A DNA stretch of 45,676 nucleotides, taken from a bacterium HR08 (GTDB lineage: Bacteria > Acidobacteriota > Blastocatellia > HR10). Shown here one piece after another: positions 6,425 to 37,596 of this stretch. The notes beneath the pieces are model-generated. The model worked only from the letters and a program-made list of their open reading frames with translations, was not told the DNA's origin and made no database searches. The stretch covers positions 1 through 45,676 of the forward strand of contig BEHK01000005.1 of the NCBI GenBank assembly GCA_002898775.1, read 5' to 3'. How positions within the stretch are numbered: the stretch's first letter is position 1; each line of letters starts with the position of its first letter. The translations under genes were made by a program, and so were the position numbers.

Positions 6425-7819
6425 ATGAAAGTCGAAGTCATCATGCCGCAGATGGGTGAGAGCATCGCCGAAGGAACGGTCACGAAATGGCTCAAGAAGC
6501 CGGGCGATTACGTCCGCCGCGATGAGCCGCTCTTTGAGATCTCCACCGACAAAGTAGACGCCGAGATCCCCTCGCCGGCCGAGGGCGTCCTCGCCGAGAT
6601 CCTCGTCCAAGAGGGCGAGACGGTTCCCATTCAGACCGTCGTCGCCCGTATTGAGACGGATAAAGAGGCCGTCGAACCCGCGCCGCGTGAGACGAAAGCG
6701 CCTATCGCCCAGGCCGAGGAGACGACTCCCGCGAAAGCCCCGACTCCGGAACCCGTGCGCGCAGCCCCACCGCCTCCCGAAGAAGAGCCCTCGCCCATGC
6801 GCGAGGTCATCATCCCGCCCCTCCCTTGGGAGAAACAGAAGAAGGAGATTCGCCTCACGATCCCGGCCGAGCGCGTCGCATCCGGGCGAAAGGCCGTACG
6901 CTCATCCCCGGTCGTCGAGAAGCTGGCGCAGGAGTACGGTCTCGATCTCACGCAGATCGAGGGGACGGGACGTGGCGGGCGCGTCACCAAGCGCGACGTC
7001 TTGCGATACCTGGAGGAGCGCGCGGCTGCTCCGGAGGGTCAGGCGCGCCCGCAACCGGTCGAAGTCCCCTCACCGCAGCAGCCTGAGCCGGAGACGCCCC
7101 TCTATCCCCCCTATCTCCCCGGCGAGCGCGTCGAGATCGTCCCCATGAGCGTCATGCGGAAGAAGATCGCCGAGCACATGGTCTACAGCAAGCGCGTCGC
7201 TCCCCATGTGACGACCTTCTTCGAGATCGACATGACGCGCGTCAGCCGACTGCGGGAACAACTCCAGGCGGATTTCGAGCAGCGGCATGGCGTCAAACTC
7301 ACCTACCTGCCCTTCATCGTTCAGGCCTGTGTGAGCGCGCTGAAGGCCTTCCCCATCCTCAACGCCTCGATCGCGGGTGACAAGATCGTCTACAAGAAGG
7401 ACATCAACATCGGCATCGCCGTCGCCCTGGATTGGGGACTCATTGTCCCCGTCATCAAGAACGCGGATACATTGAGCTTGGTCGGACTGGCCAAGGCCGT
7501 TCACGACCTGGCCACGCGCGCTCGGAACAAGCAACTGAAGCCGGAGGAGGTCCAAGGAGGGACGTTCACGATCACCAATCCCGGCGTCTTCGGTTCGCTC
7601 TTCGGAACCCCGGTGATCAACCAACCGCAGGTGGCCATCCTCGGCGTCGGTCGCATCACCAAGCGTCCCGTCGTCGTCGAAGACGATGCCATCGCCATTC
7701 GGGCGATGGCCTACTTCTCCCTCTCCTTCGATCATCGGCTCATTGATGGGGCCGTGGCCGACCAATTCATGGCGCACGTGAAGCGGACGCTGGAATCGTT
7801 CGAACTGACAGGAATCTGA
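6425..7819 (+). CDS. 2-oxoacid dehydrogenase E2 component (dihydrolipoamide acyltransferase)
   Basis: This is the core acyltransferase of the complex (464 residues). Domains in order: lipoyl domain (~1–80) with the lipoylated lysine K43 in STDKVDAEIPSP; an Ala/Pro/Glu-rich linker; the peripheral-subunit-binding domain (~155–195, SSPVVEKLAQEYGLDL…GTGRGGRVTKRDV); a second Pro-rich linker; and the catalytic domain (~235–464) ending in FDHRLIDG, where H437 and D441 form the HxxxDG active site. ATG 6425 has AAGGAGGT at ideal spacing; the frame opens earlier (6389) through the palindrome. A single lipoyl domain is seen. The next gene encodes LipB, which supplies octanoyl groups for lipoylation of exactly this protein class. 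Confidence 0.93.
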   Translation: MKVEVIMPQMGESIAEGTVTKWLKKPGDYVRRDEPLFEISTDKVDAEIPSPAEGVLAEILVQEGETVPIQTVVARIETDKEAVEPAPRETKAPIAQAEETTPAKAPTPEPVRAAPPPPEEEPSPMREVIIPPLPWEKQKKEIRLTIPAERVASGRKAVRSSPVVEKLAQEYGLDLTQIEGTGRGGRVTKRDVLRYLEERAAAPEGQARPQPVEVPSPQQPEPETPLYPPYLPGERVEIVPMSVMRKKIAEHMVYSKRVAPHVTTFFEIDMTRVSRLREQLQADFEQRHGVKLTYLPFIVQACVSALKAFPILNASIAGDKIVYKKDINIGIAVALDWGLIVPVIKNADTLSLVGLAKAVHDLATRARNKQLKPEEVQGGTFTITNPGVFGSLFGTPVINQPQVAILGVGRITKRPVVVEDDAIAIRAMAYFSLSFDHRLIDGAVADQFMAHVKRTLESFELTGI

Positions 7820-30084: not shown

Positions 30085-30309
30085 TCACCGCAAAGCAGCC
30101 TTAAGGACCTCCGTCTTCGTCCCCCTATCGGTCGTGATGTGCCTGACGAAGTAGAGGAATCCATCGCGTCCCACCGCCTGCAAACTCCCCCAATCATCCC
30201 CAACCGGGATCGGACGAACGTGCGCTCTATCTGGCGAAAGGAGATACAGCGCATAGGTGAACGGGCGATGAATGACCCACGATCCCCCCTTTAGCTCGCG
30301 CTTCTGCCA
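30085..30309 (-). pseudogene. in-frame continuation of the β-propeller-like gene beyond an amber codon
   Basis: After the TAG at 30312–30310 the same frame stays open for 74 codons to TGA 30087–30085. It reads WQKRELKGGSWVIHRPFT, then YALYLLSPDRAHVRPIPVGD, DWGSLQAVGRDGFLYFVRH and ITTDRGTKTEVLKAAL. This looks like two more propeller strands and a natural C-terminus, unlike random sequence. The upstream gene is therefore either truncated by one point change, read through, or affected by a base error in the assembly. No ribosome-binding site suggests separate translation. Confidence 0.6.
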
Positions 30310-31110
30310 CTAGCTCTCCTGCGTCACTACGGCCAGAAGGAAGCTGCCATCAATGAAGGCGAAGTGATCCACTTCCACCCTCCGACGGACTCTCCACGAT
30401 CGCCTCAGCTGCGTCTGGAGTTCCCCTAAGTCTTCTTCTTCCCACCTTCCCGCCTCCAGGGCGCATCGCCGAAGCCGCAAGGTCCCCGGATCGAGCCAGA
30501 ACAAGTCCTGGCCTCGGACGATCAACCGCTGAGCCCGCGAGATCGCACGCCCGATATCCGCCGACCCATCGCCCGGGATCGTGGCCAGCACCTGCCCATT
30601 AGCCCCGATCCGATAAACCCACATGCGGGCTTCGGAGGTCCCAGCCTGTCCAGATGCCCTCACACCGACCAGAAACACTTCCCCGCCCTCTGCCGGTTCC
30701 ACGGTCCAGGGGATGAACTCAGGCACCTCGAAAGAACGACGCAGACGCCCTTCGGCATCGAAGATGAGCCCGCGCGTGACCAGCCTCCACGGCGTATCCG
30801 ACGCCCCACCGATGACCACCAGCTCGCCACTAGGAGCAATGCGAAAATCTAGGAACCCCTGCAGTTGCTGCTCCCTGGCCCACAACTCGAACACACGCCC
30901 TCCATCCGGCCGAAGCTTCACAATCACCTTCGGAGAACCCCAGTATAGCATTCCCGCGCGGTCAACCTCCAGATAGAAGTGACGGAAGTTCTCCGCAAGC
31001 ACCCTTCGCTCAACGACCACCAACTCCTGAGGAGAGGCGTGCGGCCACGCTCGACCTCCGAACACCATGAAAATCAACAGCACACGTCTCCACATGCCTG
31101 TGCCTGACAT
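30310..31110 (-). CDS. exported β-propeller-like protein, ended by an in-frame TAG
   Basis: The ATG at 31110 (MSGTGMWRRVLLIF) has GGGAGGGG three bases upstream. Residues ~6–22 form a signal peptide (WRRVLLIFMVFGGRAWPHA). The remainder has repeated β-rich units with turns such as DRAGMLYWGSPKVIVKLRPD, FRIAPSGELVVIGG, GLIFDAEGRLRRSFEVPEF and YRIGANGQVLATIPGD, the pattern of a six-bladed propeller. Similar proteins in Acidobacteriota and Bacteroidota sit beside small secreted peptides. The frame stops at TAG 30310 after 266 residues, but coding potential continues (next entry downstream), so this is probably a truncated form of a ~340-residue protein. Function unknown. The 5' end overlaps the Cys-rich gene by 101 bases. 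Confidence 0.7.
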   Translation of the reverse strand: MSGTGMWRRVLLIFMVFGGRAWPHASPQELVVVERRVLAENFRHFYLEVDRAGMLYWGSPKVIVKLRPDGGRVFELWAREQQLQGFLDFRIAPSGELVVIGGASDTPWRLVTRGLIFDAEGRLRRSFEVPEFIPWTVEPAEGGEVFLVGVRASGQAGTSEARMWVYRIGANGQVLATIPGDGSADIGRAISRAQRLIVRGQDLFWLDPGTLRLRRCALEAGRWEEEDLGELQTQLRRSWRVRRRVEVDHFAFIDGSFLLAVVTQES

Positions 31111-31540
31111 AATCCCCTCCCTCACATACCCCGGAAAACCGACTCCCTGTCAAGATCGGTCCCGGAGGACAAGCAATGTCGCGATCATCTTCAGCCCACA
31201 ACTCCCGCACGCTGTTGTCCTCAGCACAGAACAGTAAGGCACAAAGATAAAGATCCTGCCAGCATTGTCTATTTCCGATGGGGAACACCACCCGGCAAAA
31301 ATAATTCGTGCACCAAACCTGCACGCACGTTTGCTCCCCATCTCTGGAGGGACAACACAAAGTATCAGACGAGCGTGCGGTGTATGTGGAAGTGTATCCA
31401 CAGCCTTCTTGAAGCGTTGCCGATTCGGAAGAAGAAAGAGCCCGCAAGACTGTCGCCGACGGAACCCACCCGATAGATTGAGCCGCCAGGATCACCCCGA
31501 TGGCCACGCCGCGCCGGAGAAGCTCCCGCTTCATGCTCAT
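31010..31540 (-). CDS. secreted cysteine-rich protein of unknown function
   Basis: A 176-residue frame starting at ATG 31540 (or ATG 31534) after GAGAGGGGG. A basic N-terminus and hydrophobic segment (~11–29) lead to LSSSESATLQEG at 35–46, which resembles a double-glycine leader, followed by C47. Ten cysteines occur between 47 and 124 (C47, C62, C63, C72, C77, C82, C93, C100, C105, C124), suggesting a disulfide-bonded extracellular product. Residues ~144–176 overlap the β-propeller gene out of frame, so the true end may be earlier or a frameshift may be present. A promoter-like repeat lies 38–83 bases upstream. No family recognised. Confidence 0.6.
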   Translation of the reverse strand: MSMKRELLRRGVAIGVILAAQSIGWVPSATVLRALSSSESATLQEGCGYTSTYTARSSDTLCCPSRDGEQTCVQVWCTNYFCRVVFPIGNRQCWQDLYLCALLFCAEDNSVRELWAEDDRDIACPPGPILTGSRFSGVCEGGDYVRHRHVETCAVDFHGVRRSSVAARLSSGVGGR

Positions 31541-31577: not shown

Positions 31578-31623
31578 TGAGCTTTTCAGGCAGCTCCAAT
31601 TATACTGTCTGTCAAGCCCGTTT
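31578..31623 (-). repeat. promoter-like repeat, copy A, before the Cys-rich gene
   Basis: Read in gene direction: AAACGGGCTTGACAGACAG, then TATAATTGGAGCTGC, then CTGAAAAGCTCA. It matches copy B at 34472–34521 except for one substitution and one 4-base tandem unit. It contains TTGACA and TATAAT only 5 bases apart, followed by a small stem GAGCT…AGCTC that would lie in the transcript leader. Confidence 0.8.
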
Positions 31624-31647
31624 CTCATGGGCGGCGCGGGCCGACAA

Positions 31648-32256
31648 TCAATCCTCTCCCATATGGTCATGCTCACGACACCGTCTCACGATGGAAAGCA
31701 GCGCGGAGTAGGATGGCTCGTCTTCCCGGAGAGCACCGGAGTGGACCCACAAGATGATCCCGTGAGGCGAGACCACAACGGCTTGAGGGATCGCCGTGAC
31801 GCGATAGGCCCTCCAGAGGGTCCGATCTGGAACGGAGGCGATCTCGAAGTCCCGAGCATGGCTTTGAGCCCATGCGGCTGTCTCTTCGAGAGGGTCTAAG
31901 GAGATCCCGAGGATGTCCCAACATTCCCGATTGATTTCGCCAGACAGTCGTTCCCAAAGGGGGAAGTGTTCCTCACAGACTCGGCACTTCGGTGAGAAAA
32001 ACAACAGCACACACCCCTTTCGACCGGGAACAAAAATTTTCCGACCGTTGAGCGTCACGGCCTGAAACGAAGGGACCCGATCCCCCACCAAAGCCCTCGC
32101 GGGTCCGGATAATCCACCTCCGACCTGCTCAAGCTCGGCCCGCAATCTCAGATTCTCTCGTAATAAGGCGACCGAGAAAAGGAGCGCCAGGAATGCCGCT
32201 GAGCATGCGATCGCCAAGTTGAGGCCGTGAGAGAAGCGAACCTTAATCCCGATCAC
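31648..32256 (-). CDS. membrane-anchored thioredoxin-fold (TlpA/redoxin-like) protein
   Basis: The 202-residue protein has an N-terminal membrane anchor (~12–32), a short coiled segment and a periplasmic thioredoxin fold. FFSPKCRVCEEHFPLW carries the CxxC pair C91/C94, and AIPQAVVV holds the cis-proline P157 that faces it. TlpA-like proteins reduce or rearrange disulfides outside the cytoplasm; the two Cys-containing secreted proteins encoded next to it are natural candidate clients (inference). The start is GTG 32256, overlapping the upstream gene by 14 bases, which indicates coupling. The gap to the next gene holds repeat copy A. Confidence 0.8.
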   Translation of the reverse strand: MIGIKVRFSHGLNLAIACSAAFLALLFSVALLRENLRLRAELEQVGGGLSGPARALVGDRVPSFQAVTLNGRKIFVPGRKGCVLLFFSPKCRVCEEHFPLWERLSGEINRECWDILGISLDPLEETAAWAQSHARDFEIASVPDRTLWRAYRVTAIPQAVVVSPHGIILWVHSGALREDEPSYSALLSIVRRCREHDHMGED

Positions 32257-34024
32257 CGATACGCGCCTCGGTCCCTCCGGATGCTGACCTACCTTTTAAG
32301 GCCCCCGCGCAAGCGGCGATCACCGCCCTTGCCCGCAGGACCGGATGGGCGAGCGCTCGCGCGAAGGCCATCGTCCCATAGAAATCTCGCGCGCCGAGAA
32401 GCGAAAATGGGAGTTCGAAAGAGAACACGCGCGCATCAACCTCGTAGGCGAACGAGAAATCGCCGACCGTGATGAGGTTCCCCAGCGACACCTCCCCATC
32501 GAAGTCCTTCGCCCGATTGATCACCTCCACCGCCTCCTGAAGCGTCAGGAAAGCAGAAGGACTGTTCATGAGGCCATGGAGAACCGACAGGCCCAGGAGA
32601 AGAGACGCCTTCACACGATCCGGCTCCAACTTCCGGGTGATTTGCTCCGCTTCGATGAGTGATCTCATCGCTTCGGACGGATCGTCGGAGGCGAACTGAC
32701 GATGGGCGATCAAGGCCAGCAGATACGCCTTCAGGGAGGGCTTCATCGGCCGCCGCACACGCTCAAGAGCCTCGGCGAGATTTCCCGCACGAATCGCTCT
32801 CTCGGCCACTAGGTAGTGAACGAAAGAGAGAATCTCCTGGCGTCGTTCGGGCGAGATCTTCTCCGCGATCTCGAAGGCCTGCTCAAAATTCCCCTTCCGA
32901 ATGGCGCGGTCCAGAGCGAGGAAGAAGAGGCGATCCCGCACCTTTGGGTCCGTCGCTCTCTCGGCTTTCTCCAAGAGATCCTCGCCACCGTCTGGGTGCG
33001 GCGCAAGCGAAGAAGGAGGCCGTGACGCGGCACGCTCTAACGACGCTCGTTCCCCTTGAGGGAAGAGAGCAGCGAGCAGATTCCGTTGCCGTTCGAGTTC
33101 ATCGGCCAGAGCCGGAAGAAAGCGATGACAGTGGGGCAAGATCACGCTGAGGAAGAAGAAATCTCCACGAGGCCCCCACAGCGGCCCTCGGCCGGCATAC
33201 CGTTCTGGAGCCAAGAGCGGAGGGATTACACGCTGAAGAAACCTCACGGCCATCTCCGAATCGACGGGGCCACGCCGATATCCCGGCAGAGAGAACATCC
33301 GAGGCCCCTCCCCCGTCAGTTGCATGGGGAGCGCAGGCGAGAAGACGTACGCGTAAAGCAGAAGGAGTTCGTTCACATCCCCCGCCCCCTGGCTCGCGAC
33401 CTGGGAAGTCAAATCGAGAAAAAGGAGATCGGCCTGCGCGCGCGCCTTCTCCCGCAGATCGAGGAGAAACAGCAGTCCCTCCCAATTGAGAAGAGTCCTC
33501 ATCCTTCTCCTCACCATATAGCCGGCCAAATCCGGATGGTTCTCGATCAACCCCCGCGCGAACTGCACATAACTGACCTGGGCGGACGAAGTCGTCTCGG
33601 CCGAAGCCGACCTCTCATGAAGCTCATCGAGCAATCTCTTGGCCAATCCCTCATCGTGCTGCGCGATGCGGCTGATGATCCGCCTCTGCAGGGCGCTCCA
33701 CTTTCCTCGCCAGTGGTCGTCCTTCGCACCACCTTCATCGCTGAGCGTCTCTTGGAAGGCACGAGTGAGAAGCCCCCGGGCCCTCTCCGGATCCTCGCTT
33801 CTGAGGATGTCAGCGATCCGAATGATGAGTTCCAGGCGCTGTTCCCGCCGCTCAATGTCGCGGATCTCATCGGGCAGCAAGGAGAGCGTCTCAAGAGCCG
33901 CCTCTCGCGGATTCGATGGCTCTTCTCGCTGTAAAGGCCTCCGACCCCCGCTCCAGATAGTCAAGGTCACGCCGATCACGAGAAAAGCGAGCAGAGCGAG
34001 GCAATGCACACCCCTTCCGCACAT
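32243..34024 (-). CDS. exported helical-repeat protein of unknown function
   Basis: 593 residues; AGGAGG lies 5 bases before ATG 34024. A hydrophobic N-terminal segment (~8–25, LALLAFLVIGVTLTIW) is a signal peptide or anchor. The rest is almost entirely α-helical with repeated helix pairs such as RLELIIRIADILRSEDPERA, LFFLALDRAIRKGNFEQAFE, VHYLVAERAIRAGNLAEALE and LALIAHRQFASDDPSEAMRS, spaced as in TPR/SEL1-type scaffolds. Similar uncharacterised proteins occur in Acidobacteriota as far as I recall. It is translationally coupled to the thioredoxin-fold gene. Confidence 0.75.
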   Translation of the reverse strand: MCGRGVHCLALLAFLVIGVTLTIWSGGRRPLQREEPSNPREAALETLSLLPDEIRDIERREQRLELIIRIADILRSEDPERARGLLTRAFQETLSDEGGAKDDHWRGKWSALQRRIISRIAQHDEGLAKRLLDELHERSASAETTSSAQVSYVQFARGLIENHPDLAGYMVRRRMRTLLNWEGLLFLLDLREKARAQADLLFLDLTSQVASQGAGDVNELLLLYAYVFSPALPMQLTGEGPRMFSLPGYRRGPVDSEMAVRFLQRVIPPLLAPERYAGRGPLWGPRGDFFFLSVILPHCHRFLPALADELERQRNLLAALFPQGERASLERAASRPPSSLAPHPDGGEDLLEKAERATDPKVRDRLFFLALDRAIRKGNFEQAFEIAEKISPERRQEILSFVHYLVAERAIRAGNLAEALERVRRPMKPSLKAYLLALIAHRQFASDDPSEAMRSLIEAEQITRKLEPDRVKASLLLGLSVLHGLMNSPSAFLTLQEAVEVINRAKDFDGEVSLGNLITVGDFSFAYEVDARVFSFELPFSLLGARDFYGTMAFARALAHPVLRARAVIAACAGALKGRSASGGTEARIGDRD

Positions 34025-34053
34025 ACGCTCCTCCTCTCGTCATGAGACCGTAG

Positions 34054-34082
34054 CCGTCCGGCCCAACCTCTCCACCGGACGG
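34054..34082. promoter_or_regulatory. inverted repeat upstream of the helical-repeat gene
   Basis: CCGTCCGG (34054–34061) and CCGGACGG (34075–34082) are perfect 8-bp arms around a 13-base spacer, 30–58 bases before the start codon. It could be an operator or leader hairpin. The rest of 34083–34240 shows only an imperfect hairpin near 34181–34204, a possible terminator for the small peptide gene. Confidence 0.35.
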
Positions 34083-34240
34083 AGCAAGCACGCCGCTTCA
34101 TCTGCGATATCGGCCCCTCTACATACAGGCCCTCCGATCACCGGCGATGCCCACTCGTTTCTTCGAGAAGGCCTGAATGAGGGGAGCGCTCTACAACGCT
34201 CTCCAATCTGACAATCCCGCCGCTCGATTCACCCTGTTCC

Positions 34241-34453
34241 TCAGTCAAGGAGGGTAGGGATCCAGCAGTTGACGACCCGACAATCTCCTCCCCTGATCAC
34301 CCCATACTCGCCCGTGGCGGGATAGTAACAGTTACACTTTGGAGCCGCCTCGTCGTCTTGCGCCCAAGTGGGGACGGATACCCACAATCCCACAAGAGCC
34401 AGCGTCATCGCCAAAAGGGTCCAGGGAGCGAACCATTTCAATCTTTCGCCCAT
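34241..34453 (-). CDS. small secreted four-cysteine peptide
   Basis: The 70-residue product starts at ATG 34453, eight bases after a perfect AGGAGG; the frame also opens at GTG 34462. A classical signal peptide (positive GERLK, hydrophobic ~9–27) ends in PTWA-Q, predicting cleavage after residue 31. The mature ~39 residues contain C40, C42, C58 and C63 (KCNCYYPATG…GGDCRVVNCW). It is too short for a folded enzyme; a disulfide-bonded peptide is likely. Repeat copy B lies 19–68 bases upstream. I do not recognise a named family; its setting beside redoxin and propeller genes recalls NVEALA-type peptide loci of Bacteroidota, without sequence proof. Confidence 0.7.
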   Translation of the reverse strand: MGERLKWFAPWTLLAMTLALVGLWVSVPTWAQDDEAAPKCNCYYPATGEYGVIRGGDCRVVNCWIPTLLD

Positions 34454-34471
34454 GGCCTTCACCTCCTGCTA

Positions 34472-34521
34472 TGAGCTTTTCAAGCAGCTCCAATTATACT
34501 GTCTGTCTGTCAAGCCCGTTT
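34472..34521 (-). repeat. promoter-like repeat, copy B, before the four-cysteine peptide
   Basis: Read in gene direction: AAACGGGCTTGACAGACAG, ACAGTATAATTGGAGCTGC, then TTGAAAAGCTCA. Compared with copy A it has one extra 4-base unit, so TTGACA and TATAAT are 9 instead of 5 bases apart, and one base differs inside the loop of the GAGCT…AGCTC stem. Confidence 0.8.
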
Positions 34522-34637: not shown

Positions 34638-35324
34638 TCAGGTCTCGCCCGCTTCAGACCATTCTTCCGGACGGGTGCGCCAGACGTAGATCTGCCGAGC
34701 GATCTCCTGGTCCAGGGCGATCTCCGTCTCCTCGCACCGCAGGACGATACTCGGCCATCGCTGCAAGAGCTGAACGGAAACGCCGGGCATGATCCCCAGC
34801 GCGGAGAGCCGCAGCAGACGGGCATGCGAGCGCGTGCTCACATAGGCGACGCGCGCCGTTTCGCCAAGCGCCAGGCGATCGCAGGGCAGGAGGATGGCCC
34901 TCACCTGCTCCTCCGCTTGTCGGCAACATTCGCCCTCGGGGATAGGACGTCCATGCGGACACACGCGCGGATGGCCGAGCAGCGTGCAAATCGCCCGCGT
35001 GACCCCCTCCGCGAGGGAATGCTCGAACTCACAGGCAGCCGCTTCGGTCTCCTCCACATCCACCCCCAGGACATCGCACATCAAGCGCTCGGCCAACCGA
35101 TGGCGGCGAATGATCGGAGTCGCCATCGCGCGTCCCTTCGGCGTGAGGCGCAGATGTCCCGAAGGCTGTCGCACGATAAGCCCTTCGCCAAGAGCTCGCT
35201 CCAACAACTGATCCGTCACCTCCGCATGAGCGATGCGACGAACGTCTTGAAGGAACGCCTCACCCTGTTCCTCCGACGTCCACAGGGCTTCGAGCAGCTC
35301 GCCGAGTTCCCGATCCACCTCCAT
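34638..35324 (-). CDS. DtxR/MntR-type metal-dependent repressor fused to a FeoA domain
   Basis: The 228-residue protein begins with a winged helix (~5–65), followed by the DtxR dimerisation/metal domain with HRLAER (H75, E79), ACEFEH (C98, E101, H102) and GHPRVCPHGRPIP. Residues ~145–217 are an SH3-like FeoA domain (LRLSALGIMPGVSVQLLQRWPSIVLRCEETEIALDQEIA). The gene follows feoB by 13 bases and its AAGGAGG overlaps the feoB end. No free-standing feoA is present, so the fused domain may serve both as repressor module and FeoB partner. Expected role: iron (or manganese) sensing and control of this operon. I could not identify its operator. Confidence 0.9.
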   Translation of the reverse strand: MEVDRELGELLEALWTSEEQGEAFLQDVRRIAHAEVTDQLLERALGEGLIVRQPSGHLRLTPKGRAMATPIIRRHRLAERLMCDVLGVDVEETEAAACEFEHSLAEGVTRAICTLLGHPRVCPHGRPIPEGECCRQAEEQVRAILLPCDRLALGETARVAYVSTRSHARLLRLSALGIMPGVSVQLLQRWPSIVLRCEETEIALDQEIARQIYVWRTRPEEWSEAGET

Positions 35325-35337
35325 GCTCGTCCCTCCT

Positions 35338-37596
35338 TCATGAGAACACGCGAAGAGTCCTCAGGATCCCCCCGAGCGCTCCGCCCACGGCAAAAGCGAA
35401 CGGAAGGATGAAACCGACGATGGCGAGGGCGCGCTTCCACCCTTGTTCCCTCACGATGACGAGGAAATTCGCCAGGCAGGGGACAAAAAGCGTGATCACG
35501 ACCAGGCTGACGATAATCTGAGTCGTCGTCAACGCTCCCTGCTGCGCCAGATCGAAGAGCCCGGCGGCTCCGTAATCCCGACGCAAGAAGCCCATGAGGA
35601 ACACGCGGGCAGCCGCGGCCGGTAAGTGGAGCCAGCCGACGACGAGCGGGCGCACCCCTTCTTCGATCGCTTCGATCCCCGTTCGCGCGCCGAACCGCAC
35701 GCGATCGAGGAGGAAGAGCGCCAGCGTCGCTCCCAGAAAGAGGGGGACGACCTCGGCCAGGAACCACCGCAAGCGAAGCCACGTCTTCAGCAGGATATTC
35801 CGCACGAGTGGGACGCGAAGAGGAGGCAACTCGAAGATGAAGTCGCTGCGCTCGCCCGAGAGCACGCGCGAGGCCAGATGGCCAACGAGCACAAGCTGTG
35901 AAGCGACGACGCCAAAGACCGTGAGCATCACGGCTGGCGAATAGGCCGCGGCGATCCCCAGAATCACGCCCAATTGCGCCGAGCACGGCACGCCGAGGGC
36001 CAGAAGCAATGTCGCGATCAACCGCTCGCGCGGAGTGTTGAGGATACGGGTTGTCATCGTCGCCATCGTGTCGCATCCGAGGCCGAGCACCATCGGCAGG
36101 ATGGCCTTGCCGTTGAGCCCCACCACGCGCAAGAAGCGATCCGAGAGGATCGCCAGACGCGGTAAATACCCGCTGTCCTCAAGGACGCCAAAGGCGAGGA
36201 AGAACGTTCCGACAATGGGGAGAATGATGGCGAGGGCATACGTCAACCCCATGGAGATGAGCCCGTAGGGACCAACGAACAGGTCATGGAAGAATCCCGG
36301 CGGGAGCAGTGACTGGAGCCACGGGACGAGGTAGGCCCCGAAGAGGATCTCCTCCAATACGCCCACGAGCGCCTGAGCGCCCGTGCGGCCGACCACCTCA
36401 TAGATGAGGACAAGGATCACGAGGAGGATCGGGATGCCCGTCAGCGGCTGACGCGTCCATCGCCCCAAGGAGGAGAGGAACCGCGCGCTCCGCCGCATGA
36501 GCACGACGATGGGAATGACCAGTGGAGCAAGAAGCGCGAACAGACGAACGGCCTCGGTGAGCAGTCCGGCTCCTCCTCCAACCCGAGAGCCGAAAAGGAG
36601 CTGATGCCAGAGATCGAGCCGATAGGCGCGGAAGAGCGCCCAGGTGGGATCAGCCACATATCGCCGGATGAGCGCACCGAGTATCGTCGCCAGAGTCGGC
36701 CACTGAAAGTATCCCCCCACCTCTTCCCACGCCAGGAGCCCCACTCCACCCAGCAACAGCACCACCCAGAATCGAAATGCCGAGGGCGTCAATTCGGACC
36801 GCGCTCGTTCCCCGCCCTTCTTTCGGAGAGTCAGGAGAGCGCTCTCCAGAAACCGCGCGCGGGCGCGTTCGAGCTCCCGACAGAGCGATCGCGACGTCGG
36901 ACATCCCCGACACCCGCGCTCCCACAGATGGGGCACGCGCGCCAGGCGCGAGCGTCCCAAGAGTTGCTCCACCTGCTGCCGAAATCGCGCATCCCCCACC
37001 TCCATCCACTCGACGAGCAAGCCCATGGGGAGCGCGGATCCCGCGGCTGTCCCCAGGACCTCGCGCTGCTGCTCCTCGAGCGGATTTCGCGGAACGGTCG
37101 CTCGTGGAATCGCGCGCAGCAAATGGCGGATCCCGTAGCCGTAGGTGGCAATGGTCTCGACCACGGGGATTCCAAAAAGTTCGGCGAGCGCCTCGCCATG
37201 AACTTCGATCCCACGCTCGCGCATCTCGTCCACCATGTTCAGGACGAGCACCATCGGTCGCCGAAGCTCGACCAGTTGGAGCGCCAGCAAGAGCGTGCGG
37301 CGAAGGTTCTTCGCATCGGCGACCTGCACGATGACGTCCGGCTGCTCCCGCAGCAACAGCTCGCAGGCCACGCGCTCATCTTCGGACTGCGGAATGAGGC
37401 TGGTGACGCCCGGCGTGTCTATGACCTCGTATTCGATCCCCTCCAGAGACAACCGACCGCGAGAGATCTCGACGGTCGTCCCCGGATAGTTCGAGACCAC
37501 GGCATAGCGCCCCGTGAGGTGGCGAAAGAGCGCCGACTTCCCGACATTCGGATTTCCGACGAGGACTACTTTCCGCCGCCGCGGTGCCGGTGACAT
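35338..37596 (-). CDS. feoB: ferrous iron transport protein FeoB
   Basis: A GTP-gated Fe(II) transporter of the inner membrane (752 residues from ATG 37596). The G domain shows G1 GNPNVGKS (14–21), G2 region YPGTTVEIS, G3 DTPG and G4 NMVDE. A helical segment with a CRGCPTSRSLC cluster lies near 230. The membrane part begins near 280 and contains the two gate motifs around GTFFLAFGVLEDSGYLPR and GLGCDTMATMTTRILNTPRERL, ending with FVPCLANFLVIVREQGWKRA. A longer frame starts with TTG at 37626; ATG 37596 starts directly before the G domain. Forms an operon with the downstream DtxR–FeoA gene. Confidence 0.96.
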   Translation of the reverse strand: MSPAPRRRKVVLVGNPNVGKSALFRHLTGRYAVVSNYPGTTVEISRGRLSLEGIEYEVIDTPGVTSLIPQSEDERVACELLLREQPDVIVQVADAKNLRRTLLLALQLVELRRPMVLVLNMVDEMRERGIEVHGEALAELFGIPVVETIATYGYGIRHLLRAIPRATVPRNPLEEQQREVLGTAAGSALPMGLLVEWMEVGDARFRQQVEQLLGRSRLARVPHLWERGCRGCPTSRSLCRELERARARFLESALLTLRKKGGERARSELTPSAFRFWVVLLLGGVGLLAWEEVGGYFQWPTLATILGALIRRYVADPTWALFRAYRLDLWHQLLFGSRVGGGAGLLTEAVRLFALLAPLVIPIVVLMRRSARFLSSLGRWTRQPLTGIPILLVILVLIYEVVGRTGAQALVGVLEEILFGAYLVPWLQSLLPPGFFHDLFVGPYGLISMGLTYALAIILPIVGTFFLAFGVLEDSGYLPRLAILSDRFLRVVGLNGKAILPMVLGLGCDTMATMTTRILNTPRERLIATLLLALGVPCSAQLGVILGIAAAYSPAVMLTVFGVVASQLVLVGHLASRVLSGERSDFIFELPPLRVPLVRNILLKTWLRLRWFLAEVVPLFLGATLALFLLDRVRFGARTGIEAIEEGVRPLVVGWLHLPAAAARVFLMGFLRRDYGAAGLFDLAQQGALTTTQIIVSLVVITLFVPCLANFLVIVREQGWKRALAIVGFILPFAFAVGGALGGILRTLRVFS

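Follow-up and report, generated by a model that had tools for sequence, protein, structure and literature searches.

A (GACA)n tract as the spacer of a promoter-like element before secreted protein genes in hot-spring Acidobacteriota

Within a 45,676-nucleotide stretch of bacterium HR08 (GCA_002898775.1, contig BEHK01000005.1; hereafter the window), two promoter-like elements on the minus strand raise the question of why a TTGACA and a TATAAT box should be kept only 5 or 9 bp apart, and what such an element serves. Copy 1 (31623-31578; AAACGGGCTTGACAGACAGTATAATTGGAGCTGCCTGAAAAGCTCA) and copy 2 (34521-34472; AAACGGGCTTGACAGACAGACAGTATAATTGGAGCTGCTTGAAAAGCTCA) span 46 and 50 nt, respectively, and are identical but for a single C/T substitution and one additional GACA unit (4 nt) in copy 2. 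Copy 1 (31578..31623) is composed of AAACGGGC, TTGACA (31615-31610), the 5 bp spacer GACAG (n = 1; 31609-31605), TATAAT (31604-31599) and TGGAGCTGC, while in copy 2 (34472..34521) AAACGGGC is followed by TTGACA (34513-34508), the 9 bp spacer GACAGACAG (n = 2; 34507-34499), TATAAT (34498-34493) and TGGAGCTGC. The close likeness of the copies, the two box distances and the orientation of each copy toward a secreted, Cys-containing open reading frame (ORF), all described in the initial annotation, were borne out; moreover, a 23-mer of the element, allowing up to 3 mismatches, matched twice in the window as opposed to not at all in 100 dinucleotide shuffles. What had been recorded as a 4-base indel is the central feature of the element: the repeat number n, which ranges between 1 and 8, determines how far apart the -35 and -10 boxes lie.

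The element and its distribution

At least 31 copies were identified in six genomes of the family (hot-spring Acidobacteriota): 10 in HR08; 16 in bacterium HR10, of which one lies at the end of a contig; two in a JZ-3 Acidobacteriota genome (G004); and a single copy each in G003, G005 and the genome G001 of the sister genus. The HR08 genome is 73% complete, and its 10 copies are a lower bound. A search of 162 genomes of the class with the full 3' extension (TATAATTNGAGC) returned the window copies only, which taken alone would have pointed, misleadingly, to a local duplication, and the extension after TATAAT was then dropped; further copies came to light when the -10 box could also be TATACT or a related sequence and when ACAG runs were searched for directly. 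In the HR08 genome, TTGACA and TATAAT occur within 30 bp of each other at 13 sites, seven with ordinary spacers of 16-17 bp and six with spacers made of GACA units.

Alignment anchored on the boxes yielded the consensus AAAGGGC-TTGACA-(GACA)n-G-TATAMT-nnnGGCCGCCAg, with a 3' block nnnGGCCGCC. At every tract length TTGACA keeps its upstream block, and TATAMT its downstream block, at a fixed position, and the tract constitutes the entire spacer of 4n+1 bp (n = 1-8, 5-33 bp). The 30 complete copies carry spacers of 5 (four copies), 9 (11), 13 (six), 14, 20, 21 (four), 25 (two) and 33 bp. TTGACA is present in 28 of them and TATAMT in 27, all 30 conforming to TATRHT. A spacer of 15-19 bp, as expected of sigma-70 promoters, is found in none of the 30 and only in a tract-free ortholog of the sister genus; likewise, no copy with n = 4 (17 bp) occurs among the 30.

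Without exception, the 26 ACAG runs with three or more units in the family genomes sit exactly in the gap that separates a TTGACA-like box from a TATAAT-like one, a contig end falling at one of these runs, and in 345 kb of sampled sequence no tetranucleotide other than ACAG reaches four copies, ACAG itself reaching nine. Matches to TTGACAG...ACAGTATAAT turned up in 6/6 family genomes and in 1/156 other genomes of the class, that single match having no GACA repeats and being attributed to chance, while reversed-pattern controls gave zero matches. An exact-match survey of the n = 1-2 forms in 85,000 species revealed no GACA-type cluster beyond the family; some 37 scattered matches outside it were without GACA context and were likewise taken as chance. 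The element is real and family-specific, and is most likely a new form of repeat-controlled promoter. Two further sites were recorded in passing: an extra TTGACAGACAGACAATAAAA sequence upstream of another HR08 gene (C88, L061 6835-6860), with no clear TATAMT box, and an HR10 contig (C59, L178 end) that breaks off within a GACA tract of at least six units, as if the assembler had halted at a long or variable repeat.

Downstream of every copy (31/31), 22-88 nt past its -10 box and usually behind a Shine-Dalgarno-like motif, lies an ORF whose N terminus is hydrophobic and resembles a signal peptide. Most of these cargo proteins are Cys-rich, with at least four Cys in 24 of 31 and a median Cys content of 6.2% against 0.7% in other genes (p = 1e-10); their median length is 141 aa. 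Additional copies ahead of small signal-peptide genes, expected in the initial annotation, were found; a genome-wide search gave neither an absence of additional copies nor copies away from 5' regions. Since the 31 copies place one shared element at several unlinked loci before functionally alike genes, the proposed regulon of secreted peptides is supported. The element heads not only small secreted genes but also operons whose products include a protein of 593 aa, one resembling ResA and an NHL-like propeller. The GAGCT...AGCTC stem noted downstream is local to the window pair and lies outside the family consensus, a shorter remnant (CTGCCTGAAAAGCTC) occurring in two HR10 copies only; a role as operator or attenuator was discarded, as the stem is not conserved across the family copies. 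A search of the window against Rfam returned two tRNAs and no riboswitch or known RNA.

Readings of the variable repeat number

Spacers of orthologous copies in HR08 and HR10 differ in seven of nine pairs (21/14, 5/9, 20/21, 9/5, 33/13, 25/13 and 9/5 bp, the HR10 copy of the last being decayed), the other two pairs being equal at 9 bp, even though most pairs have flanking sequences that are 83-94% identical. Furthermore, two recent tandem copies on HR08 contig C54 have n = 8 and n = 2 despite 50/50 identical upstream bases. Tract length therefore changes faster than the surrounding sequence. Of particular note is contig 94 of the sister-genus genome G001, where the ortholog of the HR08 C4 operon reads TTGACA-GATACAGAGAGAGGGAG-TAAAAT-GCGGTCCGCC (gcGGTCCGCC downstream), with a 17 bp non-repeat spacer; the tract-free half-site pattern, while too strict to survey fixed-spacer copies, still recovered this case. 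Because the ortholog keeps both boxes and the downstream block at 17 bp without any GACA, it argues that TTGACA is a genuine -35 box, whose ordinary spacer the tract would have replaced. The earlier suggestion that TTGACA is part of an operator, or that the -35 box lies elsewhere, is weakened, though no more than that, by this finding; no alternative -35-like hexamer was present at 16-18 bp in the copies inspected.

We favour, with a probability of roughly 0.57 and as the simplest account of the observations together, the reading that these are sigma-70 promoters made phase-variable by slippage, in which the -35/-10 spacing switches the secreted peptides on and off. Two fixed half-sites, AAAGGGC-TTGACA on the -35 side and TATAMT-nnnGGCCGCC on the -10 and start side, would be joined by (GACA)n, and slipped-strand changes in n would shift one box relative to the other. 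In E. coli, promoter strength is maximal at a spacer of 17 bp and high in the range of 15-19 bp (PMC8695583). Only n = 4, or an imperfect tract giving 16-18 bp, would then allow the polymerase to use both boxes, all other repeat numbers being off or weak; the window copies, by the E. coli rule, would be off or weak in the present assembly. Loci would switch independently, generating a population with mixed sets of secreted peptides. The anatomy of the element is observed directly, whereas control of transcription by n, and fast change of n within a population, are inferred.

Several observations weigh against this reading. Its main weakness is that the commonest tracts are short (n = 2 in 11/30), where slippage is expected to be slow and from which two to three units must be gained to reach 17 bp; in addition, five tracts contain impure units. 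With one genome per species and short-read assemblies, each n is a consensus value only. The lack of copies at 15-19 bp counts in favour of the switch, since under a negative binomial model 4.6 of the 30 would be expected to have n = 4 (P = 0.007, and still 0.007 after removing equal-length orthologs), a result that is suggestive only, as the model was chosen by us and the copies are not independent; against it, the missing 17 bp class could also mean that spacing is irrelevant or that a strong promoter is counter-selected. Finally, the excess of hydrophobic N termini (31/31 cargo ORFs against 41% of background genes, p = 7e-13) is somewhat inflated, since the choice of start codons favoured them, the Cys figure being less affected.

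A serious rival, which we nevertheless consider unlikely, is that a DNA-binding regulator recognises the GACA direct repeats beside the -10 box and activates or represses transcription, the repeat number tuning its affinity like a rheostat and TTGACA not being used as a -35 box. The coherence of the regulon, the abutment of the tract on the -10 box and the prevalence of tracts with n = 1-2, below the length at which the boxes could pair at 17 bp, all fit such a protein, and at nadA in Neisseria repeat number does act through a regulator, NadR (PMC2791445). However, a repeat-binding protein would not need the near-perfect TTGACA that follows AAAGGGC at the 5' border of the tract whatever the value of n, and the sister-genus ortholog retains both boxes at 17 bp where the GACA tract is absent. 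Moreover, tract length spans 5-33 bp, and beyond n = 1 there is no set lower limit.

It is also conceivable, at a distinctly lower probability, that the promoter and signal-peptide block spreads passively, dispersed by recombination between repeats, with tract length drifting by neutral slippage and expression driven from the -10 region alone. Mosaic junctions at the element are in keeping with this. HR08 C146 and HR10 C66 share upstream DNA (87% identical) in front of unrelated genes, while HR08 C5 (34.5 kb) and HR10 C12 (19.2 kb) have the gene in common (90%) and differ upstream. Additionally, one signal-peptide block (MRLTREFLRRG-like) is common to six copies with different mature parts, and at the mraZ locus four species retain the promoter and the signal peptide but have different mature proteins. 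Several cargo genes are also broken: truncated or frameshifted ORFs lie in HR10 C14 (L173 ~7037) and C12 (L049 ~2400), in G003 (L053 ~8600) and in G001 C94 (L199 ~2240), so that loss of cargo proteins is common. Passive spread is, on the other hand, difficult to reconcile with the retention of TTGACA in 28 of 30 copies over two genera and with the position of every copy found at a secreted-protein gene, and neither terminal repeats nor a transposase were seen at the copies. A simple local duplication without wider meaning, suggested by the likeness of the window copies over 46-50 bp, is refuted: HR08 has at least eight copies besides these two, and its relatives have 21.

The slippage-driven switch may be taken further, although we regard the extended version as doubtful: a mostly-off cassette would independently switch more than 10 peptide loci, recombination at the promoter and signal-peptide block would swap mature peptides, and a clonal population would thereby display a combinatorial, possibly antagonistic set.

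Cargo proteins and genes of the window

The cargo proteins fall into several mutually unrelated groups, and the Cys-containing ones have no match in Pfam, NCBIfam or the PDB. In two groups the C-terminal part is hydrophobic and rich in Gly and Cys, and some members adjoin ABC transporter genes (HR08 C56, HR10 C66). Two secreted proteins of 260-262 aa with 18-19 Cys, encoded at different loci of two species (G004 C23, L054 3076-3900; HR10 C7, L171 ~6700-7480), have near-identical Gly/Cys-rich hydrophobic C-terminal parts and belong to no known family. Halocin C8 is an example of a secreted bacteriocin-like peptide, and some cargo proteins resemble such peptides in combining a signal peptide, a linker, a hydrophobic Gly/Cys-rich C-terminal part and ABC transporter neighbours; unlike halocin C8, the cargo matched no Pfam or NCBIfam family, and no curated model for a halocin C8-like bacteriocin was among its matches. 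The cargo is perhaps bacteriocin-like and active outside the cell.

Companion genes encode ResA-like thiol-disulfide oxidoreductases, NHL-like propellers and large helical-repeat proteins, family matches being obtained for the first two only. The ResA-like companions would fit disulfide handling of exported Cys-rich proteins. Maturation of the methylamine dehydrogenase type (MauA/MauD) was considered for the grouping of a Cys protein, a thioredoxin fold and a propeller, and was rejected as no family match supports it. A small Cys-rich secreted gene beside an NHL-like propeller gene forms an order- to class-wide pair without the GACA promoter (L207, L209-L212); as homologs in other families lack the promoter, the pair is older than the element.

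In the window, all on the minus strand, the first gene after copy 2 (34241..34453) encodes a small secreted protein of 70 aa with four Cys and a Sec-like N terminus, which is 93% identical in HR10 and falls in no Pfam or NCBIfam family. It is followed, probably in the same operon, by a 593-aa secreted helical-repeat (TPR-like) protein (32243..34024) with a sub-threshold family match only, large relatives of which recur downstream of other promoter copies. Next comes a 202-aa membrane-anchored thiol-disulfide oxidoreductase of the ResA/TlpA type (AhpC-TSA; 31648..32256). Copy 1 is followed by a secreted Cys-rich protein of 176 aa with 12 Cys (31010..31540), with homologs in HR10 and the sister genus, and by an NHL-like beta-propeller gene (30088..31098) whose ORF stops at 30310 owing to an in-frame TAG, whereas its HR10 ortholog is uninterrupted. 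Immediately upstream of copy 2, a DtxR/FeoA fusion regulator lies beside FeoB (34638-37596, minus strand), a position at which HR10 has a different Cys/ResA/helical-repeat module.

Comparison with known repeat-controlled promoters

In these free-living, non-pathogenic hot-spring bacteria, one repeat-spaced promoter stands before a coherent group of secreted proteins that belong to no known family, and the uncharacterised Cys-rich peptides among them are candidates for a role in antagonism or signalling. Should spacing indeed be the switch, the element would be a simple example, open to direct test, of promoter geometry acting as a genetic dial with 4 bp steps and one optimum, and an instance of bet-hedging with secreted peptides at the level of the population in organisms that are not host-associated. 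The repeat-controlled promoters known to us have mostly been described for single loci of pathogens and commensals. In transcriptional phase variation mediated by simple sequence repeats, the repeat lies inside the promoter, as in the 30 complete copies here, and its number differs between similar loci, as was also observed.

The vlhA genes of Mycoplasma gallisepticum have a GAA-repeat-controlled type of promoter before a multigene surface-protein family (PMC6258824). The likeness lies in one repeat-controlled promoter type ahead of many genes; the GAA repeat is located upstream, at about -40, and the products are homologous lipoproteins of one family, whereas the cargo here is largely unrelated. 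At nadA of N. meningitidis, the copy number of a promoter-region (TAAA)n tetranucleotide tract changes expression (PMC2791445). That tract is upstream of the core promoter and acts via the spacing of NadR/IHF operators, in contrast to the present one between -35 and -10. In Haemophilus influenzae, hifA/hifB are phase-variable through a simple repeat in the -35/-10 spacer. The porA, fetA and opc promoters of N. meningitidis are phase-variable and also have a simple repeat between these boxes (PMC2791445). With the porA, fetA, opc and hif promoters the present element shares a repeat that fills the promoter spacer, so that slippage alters the spacing, and products that are surface-located or secreted. 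Here the steps are of 4 bp and n = 4 alone gives 17 bp, and switching, unlike in the porA and hif systems, is inferred from sequence. While those systems involve homopolymer or dinucleotide repeats at single loci of host-associated pathogens, the element described here is one tetranucleotide cassette distributed over at least 31 loci of environmental thermophiles.
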